From positions 1 to 64,000 of the forward strand of contig JABYQS010000178.1 in NCBI GenBank assembly GCA_022592435.1: 64,000 bases of DNA. Direction: 5' to 3'. The notes below the pieces were generated by a model that searched no databases, was not told where the DNA came from, and saw nothing but the letters and a program-made list of their open reading frames with translations. Position 1 is the stretch's first letter; the number at the start of each line of letters is the position of its first letter. Shown here in pieces: positions 4,851 through 34,662 of this stretch. Source of the DNA: Cerioporus squamosus. Taxonomy: Eukaryota > Basidiomycota > Agaricomycetes > Polyporales > Polyporaceae. Made by a program: the position numbers and the translations under genes.

Positions 4851-4859
4851 ACAAAGTGA

Positions 4860-5430
4860 TAGTCTCGTTACCAGACGTTTAGTTACTGACCCTTTCGGAC
4901 ATTGAAAGCGGAGAGCGAAAAAAGAATGCAAGGGTCCATTACTAAACGTCTGGTGAAATTCGTATAGAGGGGTGGGGGGCAGCCCGAAGCGCCCATCCTT
5001 CCGTGACGTCAGCGCGTCGGAAGGCGGTCCGCAGGGTCTCGCGCAGCTGCTCTCGCGGGTCGCGGTGTCGCGCGCGGCAACCGACATTCTCCCTGCTCAC
5101 TTCCCGGAGAGATGCAGAGTTGGGTGACCGAGTTGCCTTCGCGCTATGTATCGAGGCCTTGATGCTGGCCGAGCGTCCGAGTCGCGAGGTTAAGAGACAA
5201 GTCGCACGGGCTGGTCGGGAGGAGGGCGCGGCGGGACCTGGCGGGACGCTGTGCGGGGTCGGGCGGGCGAGGAGGAGCGAACGGTGGGCGCTTCGGGCTG
5301 CCCCCCACCCCTCTATACGAAAGTCACCAGACGTTATACGGCGAGGTCCTGTATTTCTTTTGTCTCTCCGCTTTCGACTCCGACCGGCACCTTGCGGGAG
5401 CGCGCCGTATAACATCTGGTTACGAGATTA
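4860..5430. mobile_element. Non-autonomous TIR element (571 bp) with RecQ/DUF6589-element ends
   Basis: The element begins TAGTCTCG and ends CGAGATTA, and is flanked by a perfect 9-bp target-site duplication, ACAAAGTGA, at 4851-4859 and 5431-5439. Each end is compound. An outer block (TAGTCTCGTTACCAGACG on the left) is followed about 90 bp inward by an inner block that contains an inverted copy of the outer motif and then CGTATAGAGGGGTGGGGGG. The two inner blocks match for about 50 bp while the DNA between blocks has diverged. The GC-rich core codes for nothing I can support. The same end structure and TSD length occur on the 6.26-kb element at 28208-34467, so this is probably a miniature element mobilised in trans by that family. 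The 9-bp TSD recalls Mutator-like elements. Confidence 0.9.
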
Positions 5431-27952: not shown

Positions 27953-27963
27953 GAGGCGTAGTA

Positions 27964-28207
27964 CTGTAGAGTTTCGACCGATGCGGTGCAGGCCCCAGCG
28001 GGGTGTGACCTGTAACCGCCCGCAGTCGCCGGAGCGGAGCGGAGGCGCCCAAAATTTGCCTGATTTGGCCTGCTAAACGCCCGAAAACCGAGCCAAAATG
28101 CGAAAATGGGGGCCCCAAAGGGGCCGTGACCTGTGACCTACAGCACGATGCGGTGCGGCGGAGGTCCCTGTGACCTGTGACGCGCCGCATCGGTCGAAAC
28201 TCTACAG
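27964..28207. mobile_element. 244-bp MITE with TA target duplication (Tc1/mariner-like)
   Basis: Perfect 23-bp terminal inverted repeats start CTGTAGAGTTTCGACC on the left, with its complement on the right, and TA dinucleotides flank both sides (27962-27963 and 28208-28209). The interior has three copies of a GTGACCTGT(G/A)AC motif and no coding potential. A TA duplication and length near 250 bp fit a Tc1/mariner-derived MITE. It is inserted exactly at the terminal TA of the 6.26-kb RecQ/DUF6589 element, so it arrived after that element and separates it from its left target-site duplication. Confidence 0.9.
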
Positions 28208-28483
28208 TAGTCTCGAAACCAGCCGTTCTAGGGCGCGTCCTGCCTCGACCCAAAAATGGCAAGGAAAACGGCAACAGGGACGAGACAGGACACAACCTAG
28301 AACGTCTGGTGACTTTCGTATAGGCGGGTGGGGGGTTCCGTCACGGCCGGGCATTTAGCGCCCAATCGTGTTGCTTGACAATGACAGCGACCACCCTTGC
28401 GACTCTCTCTGCGAGCTCTGCTCGTCCGCTCGCGCTCGCGGCCATGGACGAATATATTTTCTTCGATGCTCTCTGCTACCTGC

Positions 28484-31317
28484 ATGGACTCTGCTACCGC
28501 CGCCGCCACCGCCGCCGACTCCGACGTGCATGCCCGACGCGTCGCACATTCTGCCGACCTGCTGGACCGCGCTCGCGTCTGCGCTGTAGAGAAGCACGCG
28601 TACAAGTCAGAAGAACTACGCACGGAGATTGAAGACGCACTCGTGGAGGCTTGCGGGAAGAAGCCTTACGCTTGGCAGGTCGATGTCGCGGAGGCATTAT
28701 GGTTGGGACTGGACACTGCGGTCATTGCGGGCACCGGAGCTGGTAAGACCATGCCATTCGTCATGCCGCTCCTCGTAGACAAGACCAAGAAGAAGAAGGT
28801 TATCATCATCTCCCCCTTGAACGAGCTGGAGCTGGATCAGGTAGGTCTCGGATCCCATTTGCGCCCTGGCGGAATTGCTGAGGGAGAGGTGCTAAGGCTC
28901 GTAGATTCAAGGCGATGGAACTGACAGCCGCGGCGGTGAACGGTGATGTCTATGATATGAAGCTGCACAATGTGAGTATGGTATGTTCTATCCTGTCGTT
29001 CATTCACGCTGATATGGTCCAGGAAATTGTCGCCAACAAGTTCCGCGTCATCCTCACATCCCCAGAGATGTGCCTCAAGCACGCTTTCTTCTCCGCCCTC
29101 GTCCGATCTCCGGAGTTCATGTGTCACGTCCTCTACCTGGTCGTTGACGAGGCTCACTGTGTCACGCAGTGGGGTGACAGCTTCCGCAAGGGATTCTCGG
29201 AACTCGTCACCATGCGGAGTCACCTTGGGAGCCGTCGGCCATTCCTGCTCGTGTCGGCGACCCTTGCACCATTCATGCTCGCCGACGTCTTTACGAAGCT
29301 TGAGTTCAGCGCGGATACGACGTACATTGTCAACCTAGGGAACGACCGCCCGAACATCACCCTGATTGTGCATCGTATGAAGGCGGCGCAGTCCTCCCTG
29401 AATATCTTAGAGTTTCTTGTCCGTGATACCCAGCCTGGCTCGACCCTGCCCCGCGTAATCGTTTTCTTCAACACGCGCGATCTCGCATTCCAAGCATATC
29501 GCTATCTACAAGAGTGCGCTCCGAACGACGTCTTCCAGCAGATAGATTACTTGCGCGCGGGACGTAGCCGGAACGCACGGCGGCGTGTCATGCAGCACTT
29601 CCGGGAGCGCCGGGTCAACATCCTCTGTGCGACAGAGGCCGCAGGCATGGTGAGTCGTGCGCACAAGTCGGCATCCTCTGCTGGCCTCTGCTGATGCCCA
29701 TCCCAGGGTATGGATATCCCAGACATCGACATGAGCATTCAGTTCCTGGCCGCCAGTTCTCTCTCAGTCTGGATACAACGGGCAGGGCGTGCTGGACGGA
29801 CGGGGCAGCATGCCTTCGCTATCCTGCTCGTGGAACCGAGCATCTTTAATATCAAGTGTGCCTCCGCTCCGAGAGCAGCCGCCGCACAGCCGCCGCACGA
29901 CATCGCTACGCAAGTGGGAGCAAGTACGCAGCCGCACGAGGGGGAGATAGGCAGGGACAAGGCCACTAGCGGGACCATGTCAATAGGTGGCGCAAAGGGT
30001 AGGAAGCGTAAGAAGGCGGCCCCTGCTGTCCCGAAGGGAGGGAAGGGTACGCATACCGCCGCGGGATCGCAAACATCTGGAAGTGTCGCATCGCCGACAA
30101 GTGCGGCGTCGAAACCTCAGTCCAGATCGTCATCAGACGTCACGCCCGGTACCGCTTCGCCCACAGAGCCAGGTGCAACAGTGCTGCGCGGGCGGAAGAG
30201 TACCGCCGACGGAGACGTTGTCGAGTCCCAACCCCTACCAGAGCCTTCCGCAGCCGCGGAGTCATCGGTAGCTGCAGCAGAACTCGAGGACGGTGGTGCC
30301 AACATCGATAGAGCTCACACACTGTCCTCTACCGGTGCCGGCCCTGCTCCTCAGGGAGGCGGTCAACTCGAGTACAAGAAGAGAGCCGAAGATGGGATGC
30401 GCAGTTGGGCAGGTGCGGAGACATGCCGCCGCATCATCGCAGACGAGTATTTTGGCAACCCGCCGCGGCCCGGTAGGTGTCTATCTCTGACATCGGACGT
30501 ACTATGACAGCTTGCTAACCGGATATTCGTTGAAGCTCGCATGGCAGATCCGTCTCCGCACCCATGCTGCGACAACTGCGTCAAGGCAAAGTCCTCCAGG
30601 GGTGAACTGCTCACGGACGCGGAGGAACGTGTCCTCCAGATCATCAACTTGATCGCTGGGAGGGCAGACACTGGTCGTGAGGACGCAGATGAGGAGGATG
30701 ACGAGGACGGCGACAATGTGGCCGCAGAACTAGACGGTGACGACTTCACAGGAGATCTGGAGACCACAGATCCACAGCCCTCCACGGTGTCGCAATCCTG
30801 GCCCAACCGGCGCAGCGACCACCTCCTTCTGTGCCGGGCACGCCTTGTGCGGTGGCGCATCGAGACCTGGACTCAAACATACACGTACTGCGCGTTCAGT
30901 CATCTCGCTCTCCTTCCTGACAAGATCGTCACTTCACTTGCCACACAAGCCCGCCTCCAGAGTGTCTCCGACATCAAACGAGCTCTCCCTTTGTGGCCGT
31001 TTGCTGACGAGCATGGCGCAGAAATTCTCGAGCTTCTTGCACACATTGATATCCAGGTACAGCACCAGAAAGACGTCCAGAAGAAGGCAGCCGAGGAGGC
31101 CAAGGCTGCGAAGGTTGCCGAGAGGAAGGAGAAGCAGAACGAGGCGAAACGATTGAAGCGACAGAAGGAGAAGGAGAATAGGGATGTCTGGCGGATAGAC
31201 ACTCGGTACGCAGATTGCTCAGTGCCAGTAGACTCCGAGTTGCGAGGTGCGCAGCAGGCCACTCAGCCCTCATCGGTGCGGTGGGCCAAGGTGGTGACAG
31301 GATACAGCGCATCGTAG
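28484..31317 (+). CDS. RecQ-like DNA helicase encoded by the transposon
   Basis: ATG at 28484 (MDSATAAATAADSDV) to TAG 31315-31317, roughly 840 residues across five exons with introns near 28840-28896, 28972-29021, 29650-29706 and 30475-30537. Motifs in order: PYAWQ (motif 0), AGTGAGKT (Walker A), ILTSPEMCL, VVDEAHCVTQWGDSFRKG (DEAH box, motif II), LLVSATL (III), VIVFFNTRDLAFQAYRYL (IV), ILCATEAAGMGMDIPDIDM (V) and IQRAGRAGRTGQ (VI). A low-complexity insert follows, then CRRIIADEYFGN with PHPCCDNC, matching the zinc-binding region of RecQ proteins. The C-terminus is acidic, then lysine-rich (EAKAAKVAERKEKQNEAKRL). It should be an ATP-dependent 3'-5' nuclear helicase. In fungi similar proteins include telomere-linked helicases, but this gene sits inside a TIR element, so a role in transposition or repair of donor sites is inferred. 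Confidence 0.9.
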
Positions 31318-31664
31318 ATGATATAAGTACTGTATACATTCAGTCGGTCTGCGCGACAGTATAGTCAATCCAGTTGTCATCCTCGGGCTTGAACTCTCGC
31401 CTCTGCACCCGTTGCTTTGCCCATCGCCTATATGCCCTCCCATTCATCGATGCCTGCGTTCCTCGCCACATGACGTCCTTAGCCTTATCCTTGCTAGCAA
31501 GGCAACGCGCCGGCACTGCGACGTGCGCGTCAACTTCATGATACTTTTCCTGAAGCCGCGAGACGTCCTTCTCCTTCGCAGGGCTTGTATGCGATTTTCC
31601 GCGCGCACCGTGGTTGATCTCATGCTATAATGAACCGAAGGTGATTAGTTCGTGACAAACATGA

Positions 31665-34170
31665 TTAGTAGTACGCCCCCACCTCGACATGGTCCTTGAC
31701 ATTGCGTTGACATGGGATTGATGCAGACGTCTTCTCGAGGTAGTCCCAGCTCGCGGATGGTCCCATTGCAGTGAATGTGTACTTGATATCGCCGACGTTG
31801 TGCTCTTGCGCGCGATCGTAAGGAATCCAGGAGTCCGGCCGCTTTCCAGTGTTGACCAGCCAGCAGTATTTCCGAATAAACTCCCTGGTAAGCATGGGAT
31901 CAGTCACTGCATTGCGCGTGCTCGAATGCTCACTTCAGGTCATCTGGCCACTCTTTGTTGAGTCCCTGCAATAGCTCGCAAATCTCAATCGCATAGTTCT
32001 TGTTAGAGCTACCCAAGAAGCGGAGCAGCAAGCGCGGCAAGAGGTCCTCCATTGTCTGAACGTCTCTGCACTTGATTGCATCCCTGAGGAGATGATAGTC
32101 CATGGCATCCCGGGCGAACATAATGTTCTGATGCAGAAGAGGGTCGGAAGGGGCTTTGGGTGGTCCGGCAGGAGTAGGCAGAGCATCGTGACGAGAGAGA
32201 GCGAGAGTAGAGGCATAGTTGTCGTGTATATGAGCCGCCAGAGCACAGAGTTCTTCAGGTGAACGCGAACGCAGCTCCTCTAGAGAGCTGACCCCTGCAG
32301 CGACGCACCAAAGATCGCGAATTCGTGCCTCGTATGTGTGGTCGAATGCCTCCTCGAACGTGTGATGGAACGTGCCTTGCGTCGAAGTCTTCTGCAAACC
32401 CCGGCGGTCCATGATCTCGAAGGCGTGCACAAGGCCAAGTGCAGCTCGCGTGAGGTAATACTGTTCATGCAAGGACTGCTCAACAGCGAAGACGAGGTGG
32501 AAGAAACCAGGCTGGGGCACCAGCCAGTCGCGGCTATCGAACGGGTTATAGTCGTCGCAAGAGAAGACAGTGATACCACGCAGACGCGACGCCGTTAGCT
32601 GGTCGCCTATCCAGGGGATGACGCAGTTCTGCCCGAGGTCCTTCTTCTTCTCAGGAGTGGTGATGTCGACCTGACGGAGCCATTCCTCGAACACCCGCTC
32701 GTTGCCCTCGTAACTGGCCTCCTCCTCGTGCAAGGTGCGCAGCATGTACTGAGTAGTGTTGCCTTCGACGTCGACACAGAGCTGACCAGGACGGGGAGCC
32801 GGCCGAAGCGCAGCATGATCTCGGTGTTCGTACGAGGCGAGGTCGAAGCCAGGGGTCGCAAGCAGAACTTGGAGGAGGACATCGCGCGCACGGATCGCTA
32901 GACGGGGTGCTGCGGCGGCCTCAAGCTTGAGGATCTCCGCTGGCGTAAGTAATGATCGTACGAGAGCCCAGCGCACGTTGAGCATGGTAGGCCGCCGCGT
33001 CCGGACGTACAGCTGCGGGATCTTTGATGATATAGATTGTTCCAGCGGTGCCGCTGTCGAAGGTGCTGTGGTGATCGGAGCGCTGCTCAAACACGCGGTT
33101 ACGGAAGTTGAGATTGTCGTGAGAGCCGATCCAGGGGAACTGAGAGATGTCGACACGCATGGCAGCTTCTTGCCTAGCAGAGAGAATCTCCAGAGCACCG
33201 TAGACCCACTTCTGAGACATAGAGATGCCGAGAGCGTTAAGCGTGTCGAATGCCTTCGCCGAGGTACCGCAGCTCTTGAGGTAGATAGCGACGAGCCGTT
33301 GCAGGAGACTGTTCCGATTTGAGCGTGTGTATGAGGTGATTGCGATGATGAAGAGAACAGGCTGCAAAGCGGGTCCATGTCAGTGTTAAGAAGCCCTATG
33401 ACCGGATAGCATACCGTCTCGGGATCCTTCAGTTTATTCTCCTTCTCCTGACGGCGCGTCCAGGAGCAGCGGAGTATCAGTGACCAGACAGTAGGCGCGA
33501 TCTTCTTGATGTCCTCCTTGAGCTCCGAGATCTTGATGGACAGGAGGTGCTCCTCCGAGAGCTCGGCGACATTCGTCCGCATGTACTTCCCAACAGCGAC
33601 CATCTCTTGCTGGAGTATACTTGCAGCGCGGTCGATGACGAACTTGTCCACAGCCTCAGAAGCTCCCTTGCTCTGAGTACCCTGACTGTGCGCACGGGGA
33701 GGCTTGTGCCACGTCTTGAGTAACCCGAGCAGTTCACTACTGCTGAGCAGTGCAGTCCGCTCGAACTTCGCGAGTTCATCAGTCACGAGTCGAGGCTCCT
33801 GGTAGCTGATCGCCCAGAGCAGCAGCAGTAGATCAAGATGGTGCGCGCGCATGAGTTCTAGGACGGCGCGAACAGAGTCTGCCAGCGAGGTAGGGCCTTG
33901 AGACGTGTGCCACTCCCGCTACCCGCTTCGTCCGGCATCGGTAGGGAGATTCAGGCTTGCCCTGCTCCGAGGCCGGCATGCCATCCTCTTGATCCTCGTC
34001 TTCCTCTGGTGGCCCAGCATCCATCATCAGAGCATCTCCGTCGCCGTTACAGTCAACGTTGCCTGGAGCATTTCTAGAACTTGAAGCATCCGAGTCCTCA
34101 GAATTGTTGATCCCTGCAGGCCCCATGTCGGAGTCGTCCAAGTCGTCAGGCGCATCAAGCTCGTCGTCAG
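31665..34170 (-). CDS. DUF6589-domain protein, candidate transposase
   Basis: Main exons run from about 33900 to 31665 on the minus strand. The N-terminal part has LVTDELAKFERTALLSSSEL and SILQQEMVAVGKYMRTN, then after an intron (33363-33415) AFDTLNALGISMSQKWVYGA. A central region holds WIGSHDNLNFRNRVFEQRSD and, after more splicing, IPWIGDQLTASRLRGITVFS with QPGFFHLVFAVEQSLHEQYY. The C-terminus reads YCWLVNTGKRPDS, RAQEHNVGDIKYTFTAMGP and RNVKDHVEVGAYY, stop at 31665. I recognise this layout as DUF6589, widespread and repeated in basidiomycetes and without assigned function. An acidic upstream exon (DDSDMGPAGINNSEDSDAS, to about 34141) probably belongs to it but its splice donor is unclear. 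Conserved Asp/Glu residues in GDQ and QEHN blocks could suggest a nuclease fold; that is inference. Confidence 0.75.
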
Positions 34171-34467
34171 GCAGAGAGCCCAGGCCAAGGCAAGTGAATA
34201 GCTCTGAGAGGTTGCAGTTCAGGAATTACAGTGGATGTATGCGTTACAGACAGAGGATACAACGCGCGAAGACGCGGTCATGCGGGCGCGTCGACGCGAT
34301 CGGACGGGTTTGCCGCCCGCACGCGGCAGTGACATCGGTGACATTTGTCACTGCCCCCCACCCGCCTATACGAAAGTCACCAGACGGTTAGGAACCGGTC
34401 CTCTTCTCGTCTGTCTCCCTTCTCGTTGCCTTATTAGGACCGCCCTAACCGTCTGGGCACGAGACTA

Positions 34468-34662
34468 GAGGCGTAGGGGTGTAGACACAAGAAGCAGCCC
34501 TGTGAGATGTACCAGCGAGTACTGCATCCTCCCTACTGAGATCCTGACTATATACTCATTCTGAACCTCGTCTGTCTCAAACTGGGTGCGTTCCTTCGAC
34601 TGCTCCGCATCCTGAACATCTTGGAGCTTGTCATCGTCATGTTTTGAGGTTGAAGCTTCCAT
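34468..34662 (-). pseudogene. 5' part of a small gene split by the transposon
   Basis: ATG at 34662 starts MEASTSKHDDDKLQDVQDAE and continues through RTQFETDEVQNEYIVRIS. An intron (GTAGGGAGG to TCTCACAG) joins GCFLCLHPY-type sequence that runs into the target-site duplication and the right end of the 6.26-kb element. The other flank (from 27961 leftward on the minus strand) continues in the same frame for about 15 codons and then stops, which suggests a former gene of about 80 residues. The acidic N-terminal piece has no recognised domain. Expression from the surviving exon would terminate inside the transposon. Confidence 0.5.

Follow-up and report, generated by a model that had tools for sequence, protein, structure and literature searches.

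The window considered here is the first 64,000 nucleotides of the Cerioporus squamosus contig JABYQS010000178.1 (C88 below), taken from an assembly (GCA_022592435.1) of 54 Mb in 988 contigs. It holds a 6,260-bp transposon that carries a RecQ-family helicase gene on the forward strand and, tail to tail with it on the reverse strand, a gene of the DUF6589 family. This gene order was correctly given by the initial annotation, made from the letters of the sequence alone, and both termini that it had claimed were found at 28208 and 34467. The features of the element, with its terminal inverted repeats (TIRs), its target-site duplication (TSD) and a miniature inverted-repeat transposable element (MITE) at its left end, are as follows.

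28208..34467, no strand: transposon, 6,260 bp, from TAGTCTCG to CGAGACTA, both termini located in the sequence
27953..27961, no strand: left copy of the 9-bp TSD GAGGCGTAG
34468..34476, no strand: right copy of the 9-bp TSD GAGGCGTAG
28208..28241, forward: left TIR, about 34 bp, imperfect, 79% identity to the right TIR and no difference over the first 8 bp
34436..34467, reverse: right TIR
28303..28335, forward: 33-bp subterminal inverted repeat, left copy
34354..34386, reverse: 33-bp subterminal inverted repeat, right copy, perfect complement of the left
28484..31317, forward: RecQ-family helicase gene, 868 aa, five exons, open, recognised by domain profiles and solved relatives
28484-28840, 28897-28971, 29023-29649, 29707-30472 and 30536-31317, forward: predicted helicase exons
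31340..34225, reverse: DUF6589 (PF20231) gene, proposed DDE transposase, several exons; its upstream limit is that of the open frame, with no clear start codon
27964..28207, no strand: 244-bp MITE with TIR CTGTAGAGTTTCGACCGATGCGG, TA at 27962-27963 and 28208-28209

The perfect 9-bp duplication reported initially is exact, although its left copy is parted from the element by 246 bp (27962-28207), a gap that had gone unmentioned. These 246 bp consist of TA and the 244-bp body of the MITE, which is an unrelated later intruder in the first TA of the transposon; when it is skipped the left end reads GAGGCGTAG followed directly by TA, and the TSD of the window copy is therefore exact. The MITE, with ends CTGTAGAGTTTCGACC and a TA duplication, belongs to a separate recent burst family with many near-identical places in the assembly; 40 of 59 candidates, counting the one in the window, were scored and are 96-100% identical, 39 of them at full length and one over positions 1-232.

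Searching the assembly with the element recovered further copies with both genes on C412, C51, C146, C734 and C246, along with many short copies that have the same ends, and searches with PF20231 and the helicase added copies on C623, C501, C126 and C8, in which the two genes lie head to head. An exact 9-bp TSD flanks 24 of the 31 related copies with both ends placed (25 if one mismatch is allowed), against 1 of 930 exact matches when left and right 9-mers from different copies were cross-paired as a control, the sole match apparently being a 9-mer common to two adjoining C412 copies. Outside the 31 boundaries stand C51, which meets a contig end, and the one-ended or fragmentary C261, C955, C756, C745, C774, C777 and C422; C594 and C230 have the same flanking sequence in reverse complement, so that the two probably represent a single insertion counted twice. 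Exact TSDs were found for six of the seven both-gene copies, namely the window copy and the following five.

C146: TAGTACGAG
C734: ACGGGGGCT
C246: GTGATCATG
C623: CCGATTAGG
C501: GGGTTATGC

The ends of C734 and C246 read TAATCTCG / TAGTCTCG and those of the head-to-head copies C623 and C501 read TAGACTCG / TAGGCTCG, so that both gene orders have the common terminal signature TARNCTCG. No TIR or TSD was obtained for C126 and C8 from the incomplete stretches examined. The target 9-mers have no fixed sequence and show mild preferences, 21 of the 24 having C or G as their first base. Palindromes that differ between the two ends lie just inside the termini of the C623 (104390-111355) and C501 (139299-146485) copies, an example being CCGTTTCGGTAAC...GTTACCGAAACGG ahead of CTGGGC. 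A 637-bp member on C412 (7267-7903 of the extracted stretch) with TSD CATAAACGT lies 9 bp from the end of the both-gene copy on that contig, the result of either an adjacent insertion or recombination.

For six both-gene copies the sequences on either side were joined and compared with the assembly. The 240 bp joined in this way for C734 occur without any difference on C680, where ACGGGGGCT is present once, and those for C146 are matched over all 240 bp on C522, where TAGTACGAG is present once; both are empty sites. The C734 and C146 flank sequences each occur at just two places in the assembly, and their matches are printed at 100% over 795 bp (C734/C680) and 741 bp (C146/C522), the former with a slightly lower score and hence at least one difference. 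The simplest reading of these sequences would be two nuclear alleles in each case, with and without the element, a recent segmental duplication being a possible alternative. A nested case on C24, where a 597-bp member inside a 986-bp member has CTTGCCATC duplicated, agrees with the empty sites, as the paralogous C412 member contains CTTGCCATC once and uninterrupted. Because exact empty sites exist for two both-gene copies, the complete two-gene unit moves; together with the TSDs and the repeated linkage described below, this bears out the earlier suggestion that the RecQ and DUF6589 genes form one mobile unit.

Grouped by hand, 43 PF20231 matches fell into 18 loci and the helicase matches into 15. 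A separate helicase match less than 10 kb away can be assigned to 14 of the 18 DUF6589 loci, a count which includes a weak C171 match (E 5e-5, assigned to the nearer C171 gene) and a C174 match 9 kb off, and 13 of the 15 helicase loci lie near a DUF6589 locus. The two DUF6589 genes of C171 (8592-10096 and 14501-16005) have identical scores and are inverted about 4 kb apart, which reflects either a palindromic arrangement or an assembly feature. Weaker helicase matches on other contigs, left unsorted, are probably host helicases.

The same pairing is suggested for other Agaricomycetes. Using 119 contig sizes from the best 120 of 421 helicase matches, it was found that 11 of 31 NCBI-named DUF6589 proteins (two of the 31 being from the Cerioporus squamosus genome) lie on a contig equal in size to one bearing a helicase match. 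Two pairs have consecutive gene names (Trametes cinnabarina g48/g49 and Hermanssonia centrifuga 2v3675/3676) and the Agrocybe pediades pair is on a 5.3-kb contig. The Daedaleopsis nitida pair was discounted, since its contig is 4.9 Mb and it looks like two different elements, leaving ten species, among the matches listed, with both genes on same-size contigs. A Mantel test on the distances of the two genes (12 pairs; r 0.66, equalled or exceeded in 26 of 20,000 permutations) offers weak support, its inputs being related sequences and partial gene models, with the D. nitida pair included. Between the window copy and five others, the ratio of nonsynonymous to synonymous differences per site (pN/pS) ranges over 0.11-0.26 in the DUF6589 gene and over 0.20-0.41 in the helicase gene, this measure being used because synonymous divergence (dS) was saturated in three of the five DUF6589 comparisons. 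Such low values show that both proteins have been kept under purifying selection.

The helicase gene model is one of 64 open splice combinations, picked for motif continuity and predicted without RNA evidence, and runs through 868 codons with no stop. Its product matches Pfam DEAD and Helicase_C, and its nearest solved relatives are BLM (E 7.5e-28), WRN, RECQ5 and RecQ; for two related helicases the best NCBIfam match is TIGR00614 recQ_fam (E 3e-46 and 3e-48, under the curated cut-off). The initial annotation had taken this for an intact RecQ-like gene with a zinc region; the open frame and the two domains uphold the gene, whereas the zinc region is discernible by eye and falls under the cut-off of Pfam RecQ_Zn_bind (E 0.083).

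The DUF6589 gene is identified by PF20231 (E 2e-74), the sole Pfam family among its matches, and its stop codon at 31340-31342 lies 22 bp past the helicase gene end. Its description as intact-looking has to be given up. A 4-nt length difference at about 32944-32950 changes its frame relative to C412 and C146, the frame around 'IITPAEIL' being continuous in those copies and shifted in the window copy, and the window gene lacks an evident start codon at its N-terminal end. A filed Cerioporus squamosus protein, P0001 (758 aa), is 100% identical to the window gene, and its gene model bypasses the disruption by omitting a stretch that homologues encode. Since the frame is disrupted, the window copy is probably disabled for transposase and no longer autonomous.

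The view of DUF6589 as a candidate transposase gains support from structure. For an AlphaFold model of the DUF6589 homologue P0004, the best structural alignments were with Hermes, P-element, Tn5, RAG1/Transib and other DDE recombinases; the fold is nearest Hermes, and identity to the hAT (Hermes) and P-element transposases is 6-11% in structural alignment. In this model, conserved D/D/E residues align at the places expected for DDE recombinases, and correspond to the following positions of the window.

33116..33118, reverse: first proposed catalytic Asp, D330 of P0004
32602..32604, reverse: second proposed catalytic Asp, D505 of P0004
31984..31986, reverse: proposed catalytic Glu, E709 of P0004

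DUF6589 is thus very probably, as far as the model can tell, the transposase of the element, its catalytic role being inferred from the fold and the conserved residues. The DUF6589 profile had no match among PDB sequences save an unrelated one at E 0.36, and a single-sequence model of P0002 with a predicted local distance difference test (pLDDT) score of 36.6 was not used. hAT elements make 8-bp TSDs; the element described here differs from hAT and P-element transposons in its 9-bp TSD, in its helicase partner and in this lack of a PDB sequence match.

Short relatives with the same ends are also present, one of them within the window.

4860..5430, no strand: 571-bp non-autonomous relative, ends TAGTCTCG/TAATCTCG, exact TSD ACAAAGTGA at 4851-4859 and 5431-5439

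Copies of 165-170 bp with exact TSDs, found on C138, C43 and C27, retain 86-96 bp on the left and 74-84 bp on the right. Hardly any of the 33-bp subterminal repeats is left in them, so the outermost 75-95 bp seem sufficient for mobilisation in trans.

These properties can be compared with AcademH, a lineage of the Academ superfamily reportedly described by Kojima in 2020. In the available portions of the published accounts, AcademH makes TSDs of 9 or 10 bp and its sister lineage AcademX, with a nuclease instead of a helicase, makes TSDs of 3 or 4 bp, the size difference being tied to which of the two is encoded (PMC10045372). AcademH is described there as occurring in few copies in Basidiomycota, Ascomycota and Mucoromycota (PMC10799480). 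Protein domains, such as DEAD/DEAH helicase and recQ_fam, are stated to be recognisable in 81% of fungal Academ copies, which often carry host-gene annotations (PMC6416283). The element shares with AcademH a helicase, here of the RecQ family, a 9-bp TSD well above the control, and a basidiomycete host; TIRs, general for DDD/E DNA transposons, are present, as is the DDD/E fold in the P0004 model. As the testable published features are found, the element is filed as a probable AcademH member, and the initial suggestion of an undescribed DNA-transposon superfamily finds no support because the combination of helicase, 9-bp TSD and fungal host is already in print for AcademH in those accounts.

We therefore favour, at a probability of about 0.84, an AcademH-kind cut-and-paste transposon with DUF6589 as its RNase-H-fold DDE transposase and the RecQ helicase as an accessory. 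In such a scheme DUF6589 would cut at the TA(G/A)NCTCG ends via its D/D/E site and insert the element at a target cut with a 9-bp stagger, the helicase would probably open the duplex at the termini or, during gap repair, at the gaps that follow strand transfer, and short copies would be mobilised in trans. The accessory role, proposed already in the initial annotation, is suggested by co-conservation and purifying selection.

Several observations weigh against this assignment. Seven of the 31 boundaries are without an exact TSD, the both-gene copy on C412 among them; at four of the 18 DUF6589 loci (C19, C446, C743 and the second gene on C171) no separate helicase lies close by, and the helicase loci C410 and C377 likewise stand without a DUF6589 gene; and for 20 of the 31 named proteins no contig of equal size occurred among the best 120 of 421 helicase matches. 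The joined-flank search gave no empty site for the window insertion, C246, C623 or C501, all of which had flank-only matches (C635 matched the right side of C501). Foldseek alone returned nothing at E <= 0.001, its best result being the P element at 0.054, and the structural model is that of the homologue P0004 rather than the window's own protein. The likeness to AcademH is drawn from published descriptions of its helicase, TSD and hosts; no description of an Academ transposase sequence or ends was found in the accessible text of open-licence papers, and no paper in that literature was found to name DUF6589 or to link it to Academ or to a transposase.

A superfamily distinct from Academ, which merely shares the RecQ gene and 9-bp TSDs and has DUF6589 as its transposase, is an unlikely though serious competitor. 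It would be marked by a fold nearest hAT/P, by GxxH replacing C/DxxH and by TARNCTCG ends; its RecQ gene, which can lie in either orientation relative to that of the transposase, would have been recruited in an event separate from those in AcademH and KolobokH. Against it, a helicase with a 9- or 10-bp TSD in Basidiomycota is the combination published for AcademH, so far as the cited portions go (PMC10045372, PMC10799480), and fungal Academs carry recQ_fam (PMC6416283), the best, below-cut-off NCBIfam match of the two related helicases. A lineage of Kolobok elements, KolobokH, resembles the element in having both a RecQ helicase and a DDD/E transposase and is known from fungi only, according to the part of the source available (PMC9587614). 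It is nevertheless highly improbable and was rejected, as Kolobok elements are described with 4-bp TTAA TSDs and 5'-RR...YY-3' ends, against 24 different 9-bp TSDs and TA...TA ends here, and with the helicase downstream of the transposase domain (PMC9587614), while the two genes here are on opposite strands.

Two further explanations dispense with a DUF6589-driven transposon. RecQ-like genes repeat at fungal telomeres, and a subtelomeric (TLH-type) gene could stand by chance beside a host DUF6589 gene, the end repeats being coincidental; the repeated linkage between the same ends, the TSDs and the empty sites make this scarcely credible, and it was discarded. Equally hard to maintain is a Helitron-like rolling-circle mobility driven by the helicase rather than DUF6589. 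Helitrons do employ a helicase, but TIRs are present here with 9-bp TSDs at 24 of 31 copies, the partner protein has a modelled DDE fold, and no HUH or rolling-circle domain occurs among the Pfam matches of the scanned proteins; this explanation too was rejected.

The main gain of the analysis is a candidate, testable function for PF20231 (DUF6589), which is multicopy in fungi and has so far been listed as a family of unknown function. The analysis also suggests that many linked genes annotated as 'P-loop NTPase', 'bloom syndrome' or 'DNA 3'-5' helicase' in Agaricomycetes may be transposon genes, not host repair genes. A two-gene unit with exact empty sites in one assembly lends itself to two questions: why a RecQ helicase should be required by a DDE transposon, and what fixes the 9-bp stagger at its target.
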